From positions 1 to 23,159 of IMG/VR virus record IMGVR_UViG_3300042691_033439: DNA of 23,159 nucleotides; one strand, written 5' to 3'. Within the stretch, counting starts at the first letter, position 1; each line of letters opens with the position of its first letter. This DNA is from a virus. The position numbers were made by a program, and so were the translations under genes. Positions 4,730 to 20,973 of this stretch are shown piece after piece. Below the pieces are notes generated by a model. The model saw nothing but the letters and a program-made list of their open reading frames with translations, was not told the origin of the DNA and did no database searches.

Positions 4730-5485
4730 ATGAAACGTTTGATTTTGTTTCTTATAGTATCCCTATTATCTATAAACAGCATACTTGGCGGAACAATAGA
4801 TCCTGAAATACCAGACTCAAAGTATATAGAATATGCAAAAAAATTTATATATATTGGAAAACTATGTGGCAAAACAGACGATAATAAAACATATTGCGCA
4901 TCAGCAGTAGCTATCAAACCTAAGTGGATAATTACAGCAGCACATGTTGTTGGCAACTCTAAAACATGTACACTAATTATAAATAGTAAAAAAATACCGG
5001 TATCTAAAATTATTAGCCACAAAGACTTTAATGAAAATAATTTCGGTACATATGATATAGCAATAGGAAAATGTGATGAAGATATAGGATTAAATTTTTA
5101 TCCAGATTTATATGACAAAACTGATGAGGTTAATAAAATATGTAGTATATCTGGATTTGGATTACATGGAACTTTCGTCACAGGAGCGAATAAGTCGGAC
5201 GATAAGCAAAGGGCCGGTTCTAATATCATAGATTCAATAGATAGGCAATTATTAATATGTTCTCCATCAAAAGGAAGAAATAAAACCGCTCTAGAATTCC
5301 TTATGTGTAGCGGAGATAGTGGAGGAGGATTGTTTATTGAGAATCGATTAGCAGGTATTAACTCCTGTGTGTTAGCAATAGATAAAAAAACTGACTCAAC
5401 ATATGGAGACGAATCGGGTCACACTAGAATAAGCATACATAGGGACTGGATTCTAGAGAATATAGAGCTGAATGAGGATAAATAG
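4730..5485 (+). CDS. secreted trypsin-like serine protease (S1 family)
   Basis: Protein of 251 residues. Residues 1-20 are a signal peptide (KR start, Leu/Ile core, SILGG end). The chymotrypsin triad is complete: His72 in TAAHVV, Asp109 in TYDIAIG, Ser197 in CSGDSGGGLF. Several cysteines (46, 56, 80, 115, 138, 177, 193, and another in the C-terminal part) could form disulfides, which suits an exported protein and the exported thioredoxin in the same operon. AGGTGAT precedes the ATG. Candidate roles are cleavage of host envelope proteins, superinfection exclusion or virion processing. The sequence TATAAATA sits just upstream. This is the last gene before a non-coding gap. Confidence 0.9.
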   Translation: MKRLILFLIVSLLSINSILGGTIDPEIPDSKYIEYAKKFIYIGKLCGKTDDNKTYCASAVAIKPKWIITAAHVVGNSKTCTLIINSKKIPVSKIISHKDFNENNFGTYDIAIGKCDEDIGLNFYPDLYDKTDEVNKICSISGFGLHGTFVTGANKSDDKQRAGSNIIDSIDRQLLICSPSKGRNKTALEFLMCSGDSGGGLFIENRLAGINSCVLAIDKKTDSTYGDESGHTRISIHRDWILENIELNEDK

Positions 5486-6286: not shown

Positions 6287-6825
6287 ATACAAATACCGTC
6301 AACAAAAATACATTTAATTTAGTAAAAAACAAAAATCTATTTGATATAGCTAAAACAAGAATTTTATCAGGCCATAATGGTAATAGTATTGTTATTCCGC
6401 ACGTTTGTAATAACGTAAATGCTTTTGGTGCGGGATTTGCTGGTCAGATTGCTTATCTTTATCCACAAGTCAAAGCTAATTTTCATTTACTAGGCAACAA
6501 ATCTAAACTTGGTCATACTCAATTCATTGTTGCGGAAACTGATACTAAGTATAAGCATCAAATGATATTTGCTAATATGATTGCTCAAAATAAACTTATT
6601 AGTCCATCTAACACAAGGCCGCTAAATTATGGAGCATTGGTATATGCTATGAGTCAGGTAAGAAACTATATTAAAGACCTAGAAAAGAATATAGAATCTA
6701 AGAAAATTGAAATACATGCTCCTAAATTTGGTAGCGGATTGGCTGGCGGAAACTGGAGTTTTATTGCGGATTTAATTGACGATATATGGAATGATATTCC
6801 GGTATTCATTTATACCTATAAATAA
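6283..6825 (+). CDS. macro domain protein (ADP-ribose binding/hydrolysing)
   Basis: Protein of 180 residues from the ATG at 6283, which overlaps the upstream stop by ATGA. It is a single macro domain: IPHVCNNVNAFGAGFAGQI at residues 38-56 gives the ADP-ribose binding loop (Asn followed by GAGFA), and PKFGSGLAGGNW at 147-158 gives the second phosphate loop. This spacing fits the Poa1p/TARG1-like group, which removes ADP-ribose from phosphate, protein carboxylates or DNA bases. In a phage it could reverse host ADP-ribosylation (for example by DarT toxins) or recycle ADP-ribose phosphate. The next enzyme gene also acts on N-glycosidic bonds. The fold is clear; the substrate is inference. Confidence 0.88.
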   Translation: MNTNTVNKNTFNLVKNKNLFDIAKTRILSGHNGNSIVIPHVCNNVNAFGAGFAGQIAYLYPQVKANFHLLGNKSKLGHTQFIVAETDTKYKHQMIFANMIAQNKLISPSNTRPLNYGALVYAMSQVRNYIKDLEKNIESKKIEIHAPKFGSGLAGGNWSFIADLIDDIWNDIPVFIYTYK

Positions 6826-6834
6826 AGAGACTAT

Positions 6835-6975
6835 ATGTATTATTTTTTAATTGGTTGTATTGTATATGGAATATATCTAGGTTTTCAAGAAATGAACTTA
6901 GTTAGAACTACTAATCTTGATTATCAATCACCTAAAAACATGGTAGATTTTTTATTAAATGAACAGACTAAATAA
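6835..6975 (+). CDS. 46-residue membrane protein
   Basis: Short gene with AAAGAGA upstream of its ATG. Residues 2-17 are hydrophobic and aromatic (YYFLIGCIVYGIYLGF), followed by a polar tail. Its end overlaps the next gene by 17 bases, as is usual in this genome. It fills the only space between the macro-domain gene and the deoxyribosyltransferase gene. Likely a small single-pass membrane peptide; no family is recognised. Confidence 0.55.
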   Translation: MYYFLIGCIVYGIYLGFQEMNLVRTTNLDYQSPKNMVDFLLNEQTK

Positions 6976-7501
6976 TCAAAGAGTATATCTCGCCGGTGCT
7001 ATGGATAGAGTTCCCGACAGGGGTGTTGGTTGGCGAGATCTCATAACACCGTTTTTAACGGATCTTGGAATCACCGTATTTAACCCTCTCAAAAAACCAA
7101 CTACTGTTGGACTAGAGGATGATAAAACCCATGCCCTTAAACAAAAATTAAAATCTAATCAAGAATACGATGAATTATCTAAACTAATGAAAAATATAAG
7201 GGCTGTTGACTTAAGATTAGTTGATATCAGTGATTTTTTGATAGTCAACCTAGACTTAGACACTCATCCATGTGGAACACTAGAAGAAATTTTTTTAGCA
7301 AACAGGCAAAAAAAACCTATTATCATTCATATGGTACAAGGCAAGTCCCATGCACCAGACTGGTTGTTTGGAACAATACCTCATCAAATGATCTTTTCTT
7401 CTTGGCAAGAGATTAAAAATTATTTAATTCATATCGATTCTGAAACATCAATAGATGACTTCAAAAGATGGTACTTTTTTAGTGTGAGGAATAATGTCTG
7501 A
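6959..7501 (+). CDS. nucleoside 2-deoxyribosyltransferase-like protein
   Basis: Protein of 180 residues. The N-terminal VYLAGAMDR at 9-17 is the opening strand and loop of the nucleoside 2-deoxyribosyltransferase fold. DLRLVDISDFLIVNLD at 84-99 is the second conserved strand, followed by THPCGTLEEIFLAN with E109/E110 at the place of the catalytic glutamate, and then a KPIIIHM strand. The family swaps or hydrolyses the base on (deoxy)nucleosides or nucleotides (DNPH1/Rcl type). Possible roles are salvage, removal of modified nucleotides, or disposal of a nucleotide signal. The long charged insertion at 45-80 is unusual. It lies between a macro domain and a SET protein in one coupled run. Confidence 0.82.
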   Translation: MNRLNNQRVYLAGAMDRVPDRGVGWRDLITPFLTDLGITVFNPLKKPTTVGLEDDKTHALKQKLKSNQEYDELSKLMKNIRAVDLRLVDISDFLIVNLDLDTHPCGTLEEIFLANRQKKPIIIHMVQGKSHAPDWLFGTIPHQMIFSSWQEIKNYLIHIDSETSIDDFKRWYFFSVRNNV

Positions 7502-16669: not shown

Positions 16670-17455
16670 ATGGGTATTATTCGCTTAAACGAACTTCCAG
16701 AAGGTAGCGGCAGTCTTAGTAACGATGATATTTTCTTATTTATGGATAATCCCTCTGGGTCTGGAATCACAAAGCAAATATCTCTATCGCAAATAGCGAC
16801 TGCTATAGGATCTCATAGTAGTAGTGGTAATTTCTCATCATTAACAGTAAATAATACTGGAGTTAGTGTTATTGGTCATACTCATGTTAGTAATGATATT
16901 ACTAATTTTAACTCTAGCGTTAGCGGATTAATAACTCTTTGGGACGCGCCTGCTAATGGCAATACCTATGGTCGCAAAAACTCCACTTGGACGGACATTG
17001 CTCAAGCCGCCGCTCTACAACTTCGCCGCGGCACAGAAATAGAACGTTTACAGGTTACACCTCTTGAGGGGGAACCTATATACACAACAGACACTCAAAA
17101 ACTCTACATTGGTGATGGAATAGCCGTTGGTGGTAAAGAGATTGTTAGTTCTAGTTACGACAGTTTAAACCCTCCCGGCATGGCTCGGCTGGTGACGGTG
17201 AGGAGCAGTGGGACGTTTAGTATTTACGTAGCCAGCACCACTGGCTATGTAGCAGTTTTGTGGTGGGATGGTTCAGTGCAAGTGTTTGGGACAGGCTCTG
17301 TTATAGACCCAACAACGACGAGGGGAACGTGCTTGATACTACTATGCTTGTCGATAAGTCGATACCGTCTTCTGGTAATTGGTCGAAGTCTGCGCCGAAA
17401 GAGATTTTCATCTGGAGTTGCACGGCTGGGAATGCGACACAGAGCGGGGGCTTGA
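16670..17455 (+). CDS. tail-fibre/adhesin protein, N-terminal part (frame shifts into leucine-rich repeats)
   Basis: In this frame the first 219 residues are coherent: an Asn/Ser/Gly-rich shaft start, GHTHVSNDITNFNSSVSGL at 69-87 (a repeat-type motif common in phage tail fibres), RRGTEIERLQ at 119-128 with LYIGDG at 145-150 (N-domain of receptor-binding tail proteins), and VAVLWWDGSVQVFG at 194-207. After residue 219 (about 17326) the translation becomes Arg/Leu-rich nonsense ending at 17455, while the -1 frame continues as the leucine-rich-repeat segment at 17260-18048. The AT-rich composition also turns G+C-rich around 16950-17200. A real protein would be the fusion of the two parts through a -1 shift at ACGAGGGGAACG. 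The shift could be programmed, an assembly error, or a true mutation. Confidence 0.7.
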   Translation: MGIIRLNELPEGSGSLSNDDIFLFMDNPSGSGITKQISLSQIATAIGSHSSSGNFSSLTVNNTGVSVIGHTHVSNDITNFNSSVSGLITLWDAPANGNTYGRKNSTWTDIAQAAALQLRRGTEIERLQVTPLEGEPIYTTDTQKLYIGDGIAVGGKEIVSSSYDSLNPPGMARLVTVRSSGTFSIYVASTTGYVAVLWWDGSVQVFGTGSVIDPTTTRGTCLILLCLSISRYRLLVIGRSLRRKRFSSGVARLGMRHRAGA

Positions 17456-18048
17456 CAGCTTTGTGGTCGGATGGGTCGAATGAATCGATGGGGTTGGTGG
17501 CCGTCAACGTCAACAACCTTTCGACACTGAGAACGCTGGGCATAGTCCGGTGCAGTCAACTCGTCTCTCTCAACATCAGCAACCTTCCGGCGCTGAGAGT
17601 GCTGGATTGCCGGAGCAACGCCCTTACCTCCCTCAACATCAGAGCATGTCCGGAACTGAGAATGCTGCGCTGCGGCAACTCCTATTTAGACCCCTTTGTA
17701 GATGGCAACAACGCCCTTACCTCCCTCAACGTCAGCGAGTTTTCGATGCTGACGGATTTGGATTGCCTCTACATCAGCACCCTCACCTCCCTGCGAGCGG
17801 TTGGTTTTGTGCCGAACTCCTCGGGGAACGGGAGAATCCGGACGTTTCCCCTCTCCGCGCCGTATTATACTAATTTTTCAATTGCCGGTTGCAGCCTATC
17901 TGCCGCCGCCTTGAATCAACTGTACACAGATCTTGGGGTCATCGTGGCCCCAGACATCGCTTCCATGGTCGTTTCTGGCAATCCAGGCATCGCAGCGGAT
18001 AATCCAACAATTGCAACGGCCAAGGGATGGATCGTTTACGGGAGTTAA
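17260..18048 (+). CDS. leucine-rich-repeat adhesin segment (C-terminal part of shifted tail protein)
   Basis: The frame is open from about 17220 and its sensible part starts around 17320 (NVLDTTMLVDKSIPSSG). It contains DKSIPSSGNWSKSAPKE, then FIWSC, then several leucine-rich repeats with the pattern LTSLNIRACPELRMLRC, and ends with a VIVAPDIASMVVSGNPG region. The GTG at 17260 has no convincing ribosome binding site, so translation probably enters from the tail-fibre frame. Such repeats bind proteins or sugars and are seen in phage adhesins. The DNA is clearly G+C-richer than the flanks, as if acquired. The stop is seven bases before the sulfotransferase-like gene. Confidence 0.7.
   Translation: MVGWFSASVWDRLCYRPNNDEGNVLDTTMLVDKSIPSSGNWSKSAPKEIFIWSCTAGNATQSGGLTALWSDGSNESMGLVAVNVNNLSTLRTLGIVRCSQLVSLNISNLPALRVLDCRSNALTSLNIRACPELRMLRCGNSYLDPFVDGNNALTSLNVSEFSMLTDLDCLYISTLTSLRAVGFVPNSSGNGRIRTFPLSAPYYTNFSIAGCSLSAAALNQLYTDLGVIVAPDIASMVVSGNPGIAADNPTIATAKGWIVYGS
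17616..17730 (+). repeat. 22-bp direct repeat within leucine-rich-repeat codons
   Basis: The same 22 bases occur at 17616-17637 and 17709-17730, starting CAACGCCCTTACC. They encode the NALTSLN start of two repeats, 31 codons apart. Identical codons suggest recent repeat expansion or recombination in the adhesin. Confidence 0.85.
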
Positions 18049-18054
18049 CTCGCT

Positions 18055-18903
18055 ATGTATTTCGTCACGCCAAACTATTCGGTCGCCTTTAACGCCAAAG
18101 TCGGCAGCTCGACACTCGCTCGTGCGATCATCGCGGCGTTTCACCCGGAGAGGGAACAAACCATACAGACGGCGGCGTATCCGGTTGGTATCGGGCCAGA
18201 TGACACGCAAGTTCAGTGGCTATGCCCGAAGGAGAAGGAGCCGACGAAACCCGTCGTGCTGGTTGTCCGCGAGCCTGTCAGCCGGTTTCGCACAGCCATG
18301 TCGCAACTGCGTCTGACGGACGTTAACGAGGCTCTGGAGTCGCTGGAGAAGGGCCGCAAATTGCGGAAGGACGCACACTTCAAGCACCAGCACTCGCTGA
18401 TCGCAGTCGGCGGCACAGCATTTCGTCTGGAAGACTTGGATGTGGCCGCGACGTTCATCGGATTGTCGCTGCCGTTACCGACGATCAACGAGGCACGCGG
18501 AGAAAAGCCAACGCTCACATCAGAGCAAGAGGCCCGCGTCTTGGCCTACTACGCCGCCGACAAGGCACTCTACGATTCGTTGACGGCTGGCGAAGGAGCA
18601 GTCGTACCGCCTGCATCGGAACCGCAGCCGCAGCCCGCGCCGCAAGCCCTATTACCGGTCCCGCAGCAGATTTCGGCTCGGCAAATCCGGCTCTGGCTGG
18701 TGCAGCATGGTGTGAGCCTCGCCATTGTCGAAACGGCCATCGACGCGATCCCAGATGCCACCACGAGAGAGAGTGTGAGAGTGGAGTGGGAGTACGCTCC
18801 GCATGTAGAGCGGACGCACGCATGGCTTGTGTCGATAGCGGCGGCCCTCGGACTCACCGAGACACAAGTTGACCAAGCCTTCCGAGAGGCGTCCCAGTTA
18901 TGA
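18055..18903 (+). CDS. sulfotransferase-like protein with tail-type C-terminal domain
   Basis: Protein of 282 residues. Residues 9-26 (VAFNAKVGSSTLARAI) match the 5'-phosphosulfate loop (KVGSST) and residues 67-80 (VVLVVREPVSRFRT) match the 3'-phosphate motif (R72, S76) of PAPS-dependent sulfotransferases. A Pro/Gln-rich linker spans 183-203. Residues 205-280 (SARQIRLWLVQHGVSL, then EYAPHVERTHAWLVSIA and ALGLTETQVDQAF) form a small helical domain that I recall at the ends of phage tail-fibre-associated proteins. So it could sulfate a glycan or Tyr while bound to the tail. The DNA is G+C-rich (one 60-base line is 35 G/C). GGGAG precedes the ATG. The domains are clear; the combined role is inference. 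Confidence 0.72.
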   Translation: MYFVTPNYSVAFNAKVGSSTLARAIIAAFHPEREQTIQTAAYPVGIGPDDTQVQWLCPKEKEPTKPVVLVVREPVSRFRTAMSQLRLTDVNEALESLEKGRKLRKDAHFKHQHSLIAVGGTAFRLEDLDVAATFIGLSLPLPTINEARGEKPTLTSEQEARVLAYYAADKALYDSLTAGEGAVVPPASEPQPQPAPQALLPVPQQISARQIRLWLVQHGVSLAIVETAIDAIPDATTRESVRVEWEYAPHVERTHAWLVSIAAALGLTETQVDQAFREASQL

Positions 18904-20132
18904 GTTTAACTTCCGCAACAGGCGCTCCGATTAATTGTGGCACTTTTGTAGGTCAAAATGTACCATCGCAGAGTTTTGACAAAGCACCTTTGGCTTCAAC
19001 GAAGTTTCGGTTAAGAGCAACACCGATGCTACGGGTGGAGACTCCGATTTCTATAACTAACATTGTCGTTCAAGATCGCAACTTAATGCGCTTTATTGGT
19101 GAAACACTGATTACTGACTATCGTGTTGACATTGACTATCTCGTTCCCGGTTTCGGCTTTGACTTGATTACAATAACCAGCAGTGACACAAACAAGCTGC
19201 TAGCACCAGTAAATAACATTGCTCAAGCTGTCGGAACTGGATCTGTTGTCTTAAAGGCTTCAACGGAGTTCGGGGATTTTGCGATGAAATTGTTGATTGT
19301 AAACCGTATAACTGGCACTACGAGTGAAGTATTGCAGTCATACCTTTTGGGTAGCGCGGCGCGACACGCAGCAGACGCTATTGACACTCGCATTGCCGGT
19401 AAAGATGCGACAGCGAAGCCGATTTATTCGACACAAAATCATTCGGGAGGTATTTATGTACGTAATACGAACTGTTGGGCATACAACCTCGATTTAACGT
19501 GTATTAGTCCGTGGAACTCAACAGGGGGCAACGGCATGGCAGGCACTTTGATCTCGCCACGCCATGTACTTTTCTGTGAACATGTGAACTTTCACCCAAA
19601 TGTCGGAGCGACAATCCGGTTTGTTACGACAAACAACACTGTTGTCACCCGTACAATTACAGCACTTGTGACACACCCTGACTACTCGCCTTTTTATCCA
19701 GACATTACTATCGGTGTGCTAAATGCAGACGTTCCCACTGGCATTTCTTTTGCTAAGATTTTACCCCAGAATTGGGCGACGTATTTTCCGTCTGTAAATG
19801 GTGCCGCGCAAATTCCTGCTTTAGTTTTAGATCAAGAAGAAAAAGCGTTAGTGGCTGATTGGGCTAAAAGCGATACCAAAAACTCATTTAGTTTTCCAAG
19901 TGTGAGCCAGCGGCAAGTGTTTTTTGAAAATCTTATTCTCGGTGACTCTGGTAATCCTGCGTTTTTAATTATTAACAATGAATTGGTTGTTTTAAACACA
20001 TGGACAAACGGAGGAGCTGGCGCCGGAACGAATTTGACGCTACATAAAAATGCGATAAATAACATGATGACATCTCTTGGCGGAGGATATCAACTAACAG
20101 AAGCTGATCTGTCGGCTTTTCTGTCATATTAA
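18900..20132 (+). CDS. tail-locus protein with trypsin-like protease domain
   Basis: Protein of 410 residues that overlaps the previous stop by ATGA. Residues 1-170 are beta-rich and unlike any family I know. Residues 180-400 resemble a chymotrypsin-fold protease: GTLISPRHVLFCEHV at 215-229 (His228 at the TAAHC place), YPDITIGVLN at 266-275 (Asp268), and ILGDSGNPAF at 346-355 (Ser350). It has no signal peptide, so it acts after assembly or is autoproteolytic; phage tail proteins sometimes cleave themselves or degrade receptors. G+C content is between that of the rich insert and the AT-rich backbone. The second glycine of GDSGG is Asn, which may lower activity. Confidence 0.75.
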   Translation: MSLTSATGAPINCGTFVGQNVPSQSFDKAPLASTKFRLRATPMLRVETPISITNIVVQDRNLMRFIGETLITDYRVDIDYLVPGFGFDLITITSSDTNKLLAPVNNIAQAVGTGSVVLKASTEFGDFAMKLLIVNRITGTTSEVLQSYLLGSAARHAADAIDTRIAGKDATAKPIYSTQNHSGGIYVRNTNCWAYNLDLTCISPWNSTGGNGMAGTLISPRHVLFCEHVNFHPNVGATIRFVTTNNTVVTRTITALVTHPDYSPFYPDITIGVLNADVPTGISFAKILPQNWATYFPSVNGAAQIPALVLDQEEKALVADWAKSDTKNSFSFPSVSQRQVFFENLILGDSGNPAFLIINNELVVLNTWTNGGAGAGTNLTLHKNAINNMMTSLGGGYQLTEADLSAFLSY

Positions 20133-20288: not shown

Positions 20289-20636
20289 ATGCCATATAAA
20301 CCAGGTTGGAAAAGCAGTGAGTTTTGGTTCACATTAGTTAGCTTTATATTTAGCGGAGCTTTTTTATTGGGTGTTATTAGTGATAACTCTCAAAAAGAAG
20401 ACTTAATTCAAGAAACCAGCAAAGGTCTAGAGGCTTTAATTTTAATTATGGGGCAATTAGCGGTATTATTTAGATATATTAAGGGACGTAACGAAATCAA
20501 AAAAATCATATCTTCTCAGCCTACAGAAAATTCAATATCATCGCCAGAACAAATTCAACACATTAAAAAACCAAGGAGATCCAAAGGTGTCAAGTCAAGA
20601 ACTAATAAAACTAGAAGTAGAAAAACTAATAAATAA
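20289..20636 (+). CDS. putative holin-like membrane protein
   Basis: Protein of 115 residues with two hydrophobic segments, 12-31 and 47-64, joined by a charged loop, and a strongly basic C-terminus (RRSKGVKSRTNKTRSRKTNK). Two membrane segments, small size and a basic tail are typical of class II holins, which form pores that let a lysis enzyme reach the wall. GGAG precedes the ATG. It begins the last block after a 156-base gap without genes. The end overlaps the following gene by 50 bases. Other small phage membrane proteins are possible. Confidence 0.65.
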   Translation: MPYKPGWKSSEFWFTLVSFIFSGAFLLGVISDNSQKEDLIQETSKGLEALILIMGQLAVLFRYIKGRNEIKKIISSQPTENSISSPEQIQHIKKPRRSKGVKSRTNKTRSRKTNK

Positions 20637-20973
20637 TAGCAAAGAAAAATTTAAAACAGTACAAAGATTTGCTCTAGATGAAGCTTGGAAGCTTTTACAA
20701 TTAACCACAGCTAGTGTTGTACAAATAATAGAAGCTATTGGTAACGACCTAAGCAACCCAGACAAAAAGGCTCTTGCTATGAGTCTTTTGAATAGTTTTT
20801 ACGATAAAATCTTTTTAGTAGTAGACGTACCCTTTGTGCCCAACATTGTTGAGCCTATTATACATAAGTACATCAAAAATATACTCATGATCATGGTGAG
20901 TGCAACTATTGATGCTACAGTTACAATTTTTAGAAATACTGGGGTTTTTATTAAAAGAGAGGCCGGACTATGA
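20587..20973 (+). CDS. small membrane-associated protein
   Basis: Protein of 128 residues with GTG start at 20587; AAGGAGA ends eight bases upstream and fixes this start although it lies inside the previous gene. The N-terminal 60 residues are amphipathic helices. Residues 66-116 are mostly hydrophobic (VVDVPFVPNIVEPII, then ILMIMVSATIDATVTIF). It may be a membrane partner of the holin-like protein. No family is recognised. Confidence 0.7.
   Translation: MSSQELIKLEVEKLINNSKEKFKTVQRFALDEAWKLLQLTTASVVQIIEAIGNDLSNPDKKALAMSLLNSFYDKIFLVVDVPFVPNIVEPIIHKYIKNILMIMVSATIDATVTIFRNTGVFIKREAGL

Follow-up and report, generated by a model that had tools for sequence, protein, structure and literature searches.

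The gene at positions 18055–18903 (+) of a virus record of 23,159 bases and about 33% G+C (the whole stretch is referred to as the window) encodes a protein in which a domain with a predicted sulfotransferase fold is joined to a C-terminal domain found at tail-fibre loci. We lean towards the view that the gene encodes a protein of the tail-fibre chaperone type, with an N-terminal module that is specific to the adhesin and works as a minimal PAPS-dependent sulfotransferase on the adhesin encoded next to it. Six computed features bear on it: the sulfotransferase fold, conservation of the PAPS-motif residues, a C-domain known from tail loci, adhesin genes as direct neighbours, co-variation with the type of adhesin, and fusion to, or overlap with, domains of the chaperone type.

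The N-terminal domain and its family

The gene is a single uninterrupted frame of 282 aa (longest open frame in 500 single-base shuffles of 17701–19200: mean 114 aa, maximum 244). The N-domain covers residues 1–179 (18055..18591, +) and is followed by a Pro-rich linker at about residues 184–203 (VPPASEPQPQPAPQALLPVP, 18604..18663, +) and by the C-domain at residues 204–282 plus stop (18664..18903, +). This is the architecture described by the first-pass annotation, a sulfotransferase domain and a tail-type domain in one reading frame with a Pro-rich stretch between them, and it was borne out by the fold model, a family of 71 homologues and a match of the C-domain to phrog_6034 (E 2e-22).

In direct profile searches against Pfam, PHROGs, NCBIfam and PDB sequences, the window protein gave no sulfotransferase match for the N-domain, directed PF03567 and PF13469 searches of the window's own record missed it, and the protein itself stayed below the curated cut-offs of Pfam Sulfotransfer_2 and Sulfotransfer_3. 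Scans of viral and genome contigs with the N-domain only found nothing. The best direct Pfam match, DNA_ligase_A_N (E 0.02), was rejected as chance, as only one of 56 family members matches it. Contig L032 supplied the first stand-alone homologue (E 3e-7), which lies in a tail locus, and scanning with a growing N-domain alignment yielded 86 viral relatives, the closest 41–42% identical over residues 2–178. After iteration, the family comprised 71 distinct ORFs from IMG/VR phages; the close homologues are all metagenomic. Aligning the relatives of both domains together was abandoned, as it placed the N-domain wrongly. The identity of the domain, missed by direct searches, was thus exposed only by the family alignment.

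Matches of family members to known profiles are weak but recurrent (phrog_3347 in 22 of 56, best 9e-6; Sulfotransfer_2, PF03567, in 11 of 56, best E 1.3e-4). When the family HMM was run against about 90 kb of two phage records, the galactose-3-O-sulfotransferase of Prochlorococcus phage P-SSM7 was the only significant ORF (E 4e-10). Searches by tblastn with four other family members detected no homologue in cultured phages, and tblastn with the P-SSM7 protein (PSSM7_018) returned P-SSM7 itself and, weakly, four cyanophage records, and nothing else.

The family alignment revealed three conserved segments. A 5'-PSB-like loop (residues 11–21, AFNAKVGSSTL; 18085..18117, +) has the form (K/R)xG(S/C) across the family, being K15-V-G17-S18 in the window; Arg or Lys occupies the K15 column in 67/67 members and G17 is present in 62/67. 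A 3'-PB-like motif (residues 70–80, VVREPVSRFRT; 18262..18294, +; residues 67–80 are VVLVVREPVSRFRT) contains R72, present in all 70 members compared, with Ser at the +8 position in 67 and Ser or Thr in 68 (Thr80 in the window). The third segment is a conserved C-terminal motif of the fold, K151-P152-x-L154 ... Y166-D169-L172-Y173 (18505..18582, +). R72, P74, R77, F78, K151, P152 and D169 are kept in every member having those positions. In PAPS-dependent sulfotransferases, a Ser or Thr eight residues from the 3'-phosphate-binding Arg is the canonical spacing; we take the R72/+8 pair to be the 3'-PB and the 15–18 loop to be the 5'-PSB of such enzymes. Because they are conserved across 71 homologues, the motifs are, as read from the alignment, more than chance, and the PAPS-binding motifs first noticed at the N-terminus hold up. 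Position 42, the best candidate for a catalytic base, is His in 51 of 68 members and Tyr42 in the window. No catalytic base was evident from the alignment in the LRR clade, to which the window belongs.

The AlphaFold model of the N-domain built from a 56-sequence alignment had a pLDDT of 91.2 and a pTM of 0.86 (a single-sequence model, with pLDDT 41, was unusable). The first-pass annotation had been staked on a model showing the sulfotransferase fold, and AlphaFold with Foldseek gives that fold. The top Foldseek matches in BFVD were proteins named 'Sulfotransferase family protein' from P-SSM7 (E 1.9e-6) and ACG-2014f (E 2.6e-6), both with prob 1.00, TM about 0.6 and 13–20% identity; gp5.1 of Roseobacter phage SIO1 was also matched (E 1e-5). 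Against the PDB, ranks 1–11 were all sulfotransferases, weakly matched (E 0.05 or worse, TM 0.3–0.4). The best solved structures were heparan sulfate 3-O-sulfotransferases (PDB 6xkg, 6xl8, 1t8t), which are eukaryotic glycan enzymes and 70–80 residues longer. The low PDB scores fit a pared-down fold, the domain being short and missing most of the region with which known enzymes bind the acceptor. The model supports the prediction that residues 1–179 form a compact alpha/beta sulfotransferase fold of the PAPS type.

The C-terminal domain and the cassettes of relatives

Besides phrog_6034, the C-domain matches phrog_14311 (E 6e-16); the match spans residues 188–282, with the domain starting at about 204, and identity with other loci reaches 84%. 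A profile scan yielded 84 viral relatives. In IMG/VR loci this domain of ~80 aa ends small proteins encoded just 3' of tail-fibre genes, and in cultured phages its relatives sit after tail-fibre or tail genes, so that its description as typical of tail-fibre loci was well placed. The N-terminal parts of the relatives differ and are unrelated small modules, typically variable and about 50–90 aa long. Many of them carry a fibre-assembly-like sequence, AILDxxGRVVTFVRPDVPxGWxPPEGCTAVPDDELPxGW, whose likeness to Tfa was judged by eye. The window protein has the sulfotransferase domain instead of such a part, and this domain was absent from all other phrog_6034-type loci. A Pfam search detected no DUF4376 or Tfa domain in the window protein.

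Relatives of the window's phage were located via the neighbouring gene at 20587–20973, and they carry a phrog_6034 protein with a different N-terminus in the same fibre cassette. In L100, a fibre of the BspA-type LRR kind (LRR_5) is followed by a Sulfotransfer_3 enzyme (6332–7129; PF13469, 54 bits against a cut-off of 27) and then by the phrog_6034 gene with a 4-nt overlap. A full-length enzyme of this type directly precedes a phrog_6034 gene in all three of its known loci, the others being L105 (226–1029) and L009 (456–1289; 62% G+C). Another protein, of GLPRSGSTLL type, is found in L087, L109 and L139, and the L087 copy matches Sulfotransfer_3 and follows a fibre gene. The Sulfotransfer_3 genes of L087 and L100 differ from the window gene in being full length (265 aa), separate and of another sequence family. 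As they share the genomic slot of the window family, sulfotransferases of two families occupy it. By sequence comparison, two functions that are separate in relatives, sulfotransferase and phrog_6034 protein, are joined as one predicted protein in the window.

Fusion of the sulfotransferase domain recurs elsewhere in part. The exact fusion with phrog_6034 was seen once among about 70 members; the same domain is joined to DUF4376 in further relatives (L211–L213), with coordinates 2957–3919 in L211 and 4719–5681 in L212 and a DUF4376 match of E 1e-16 in these two. DUF4376 forms the C-terminal domain of tail-fibre chaperones whose role was demonstrated experimentally (PMC7289586, PMC10579305). 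Among them, gp27 of Alteromonas phage V22 is needed for a functional fibre and is absent from the mature fibre complex (PMC7289586); a similar domain order is found in PMC10877375. Like the window gene, V22 gp27 lies directly behind a receptor-binding fibre gene and combines a variable N-terminal part with a constant C-domain (PMC7289586). The two differ in that the C-domain of the window protein is of phrog_6034 type, a putative chaperone domain, and V22 gp27 has no reported sulfotransferase.

Linkage to adhesins in the window and across the family

In the window, a tail-fibre anchor with an Mtd_N domain and a TGYVAVLWWDG segment (16670..17455, +, frame 2) is followed by an LRR adhesin part (17260..18048, +, frame 1). 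The LRR ORF stops at 18048 and the fusion gene starts at 18055; the C-terminal end of the adhesin, NPGIAADNPTIATAKGWIVYGS, resembles the ends of adhesins beside relatives of the fusion gene. The nearest relatives (L159–L165) are likewise located behind LRR adhesins, which have the TGYVAVxWWDG start and the IATxKGxxVxG end of the adhesin in the window. The adhesin frame of the window is split near 17300–17325, passing from frame 2 to frame 1, whereas the WWDG and LRR parts lie in one unbroken frame in L161, L163 and L165; the split may reflect an assembly error, a real mutation or programmed frameshifting. An island of about 50–58% G+C extends over about 17150..19000 and is probably an imported adhesin/sulfotransferase cassette. 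Downstream, an ORF at 18900..20132 (+) overlaps the stop of the fusion gene by 4 nt (ATGA); it is trypsin-like by eye (CEHV, D, GDSGNP), and a Pfam search with it gave no match. A second trypsin-like serine protease gene of the window (4730–5485) matches Trypsin (E 4.5e-17).

Across the family, a same-strand ORF ends no more than 60 nt upstream of the domain in 59 of the 66 members with upstream sequence. These upstream ORFs are adhesin-like, with LRR, fn3, LamG, F5/8C, Gly-rich, minor tail and tail-protein signatures, and their G+S+T+N content is higher than that of other genes of the same loci (median 0.42 vs 0.28, p 6e-22). The domain tree tracks the C-terminal class of the adhesin, with 8 label changes vs 32.3 in shuffles; this agreement, which is inflated by near-copies and plain linkage, demonstrates that the domain travels with the adhesin tip but says nothing of either acting upon the other.

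Several loci hold further genes of related kinds. A 2OG-oxygenase-like ORF (weak profile matches only) lies directly after the sulfotransferase gene at L147 5874–6467 and in about ten related loci of one clade, an arrangement that may point to a single fibre being modified in steps. In L150 (6521–7051), L153 and L155, one fibre gene is followed by a tandem second copy of the sulfotransferase domain. A fibre-locus protein in L091 (4523–5494) has an FGE-sulfatase (formylglycine-enzyme-like) domain (E 1.3e-6).

Phage sulfotransferases have already been described, in phrog_3347, whose category is of the auxiliary metabolic gene type, and in cyanophage annotations. PSSM7_018, the phrog_3347 'galactose-3-O-sulfotransferase' of P-SSM7, has the fold and motifs of the window N-domain and begins on the final base of the tail gene before it, the gp5 baseplate hub/lysozyme; it differs in lacking a chaperone-type C-domain and a known function. 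SIO1 gp5.1 shares the fold and is encoded on the strand of gp6 and the tail fiber gene, downstream of both, but its sequence similarity is marginal, it stands alone, and it is annotated merely as gp5.1. A place beside a fibre is not universal for phage sulfotransferases: in S-T4 and Sf-CH8, no same-strand fibre gene immediately precedes the copy. In Synechococcus phage S-T4 (L241 3962–6193), a galactose-3-O-sulfotransferase is located beside a NolO-like carbamoyltransferase; tail fiber genes lie at a distance of about 2 kb. In the open-access literature searched (most subscription papers and preprints lie outside it), there was no report of adhesin-linked sulfotransferases or of their fusion to fibre-chaperone domains, and both appear to be undescribed.

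Proposed role and alternative explanations

The first-pass annotation had suggested that the enzyme could sulfate the adhesin next to it. Through adjacency, co-variation with adhesin type and two kinds of fusion, the link to the adhesin is much stronger than could be seen from the window alone; what we infer is that the protein binds PAPS, is catalytically active, has the adhesin as its substrate and docks through its C-domain. In the mechanism we propose, the gene product would be co-translated with the LRR adhesin encoded just upstream, and its C-domain would dock on the fibre tip, whether still nascent or already assembled, or aid tip maturation. The sulfotransferase domain, loaded with host-made PAPS, would then move sulfate to the adhesin tip, and this would alter its charge and receptor binding. 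Points that count against this reading include the missing sulfotransferase profile match of the window protein itself and the frameshift that splits the neighbouring adhesin ORF.

The main alternative is a repurposed fold, in which the sulfotransferase-like domain is non-catalytic and serves as an adhesin-specific chaperone cap, comparable to the variable N-terminal parts of Tfa/DUF4376 chaperones. Position and co-variation taken alone would fit it as well, gene position and domain order match those of tail-fibre chaperones (PMC7289586), and the same C-domain bears unrelated small N-terminal modules elsewhere. The minimal size of the domain, its weak PDB matches, and Tyr in place of the common His42 in a clade with no clear catalytic base point in the same direction. 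However, the PAPS-site residues rank with the best-kept positions of the fold even in very divergent members, and in the same lineage the same slot is held by full-length Sulfotransfer_3 enzymes above the Pfam cut-off, whose gene is distinct from that of the neighbouring, intact phrog_6034 protein. We regard a non-catalytic cap as unlikely, at perhaps one chance in a handful.

Less probable still is a sulfotransferase that acts on host molecules (a surface glycan, lipid or metabolite), for example in a superinfection block or as an auxiliary metabolic gene, and reached the tail cassette by co-travel. Sulfotransferases of phages are usually classed with auxiliary metabolic genes, their role being called unclear (PMC10580990), as in the category of phrog_3347; the nearest PDB folds are glycan-acting, and the S-T4 and Sf-CH8 copies are placed as described. 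Under such a role, the near-constant site behind adhesins, the co-variation with adhesin C-terminal type and the chaperone-type fusions would be unexpected, and host surface glycans, the other substrate first suggested, are less favoured. It is very improbable that the ORF is a chance or decayed recombinant, formed by truncation of a sulfotransferase gene into one for fibre assembly and now without function: the fusion was seen only once, the cassette is a recent-looking high-G+C import and the neighbouring adhesin frame is split, but neither domain is shortened and the conserved motif residues are present, the linker is of an ordinary kind, and relatives have functional analogues as separate overlapping genes and as the sulfotransferase–DUF4376 fusion.

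Beyond the window, we put forward more tentatively, for adhesin-linked sulfation as a general process, that many tailed phages may have a dedicated adhesin-linked sulfotransferase family that sulfates their own receptor-binding fibre tips during assembly, the enzyme sometimes being built into the chaperone. The position behind adhesins, the variation with adhesin type and the chaperone fusions offer a concrete candidate substrate, namely the phage's own host-recognition tip. If this is true, phage adhesin sulfation would be an undescribed post-translational modification and a new means of tuning receptor binding, and host-range prediction from adhesin sequence alone would miss it.
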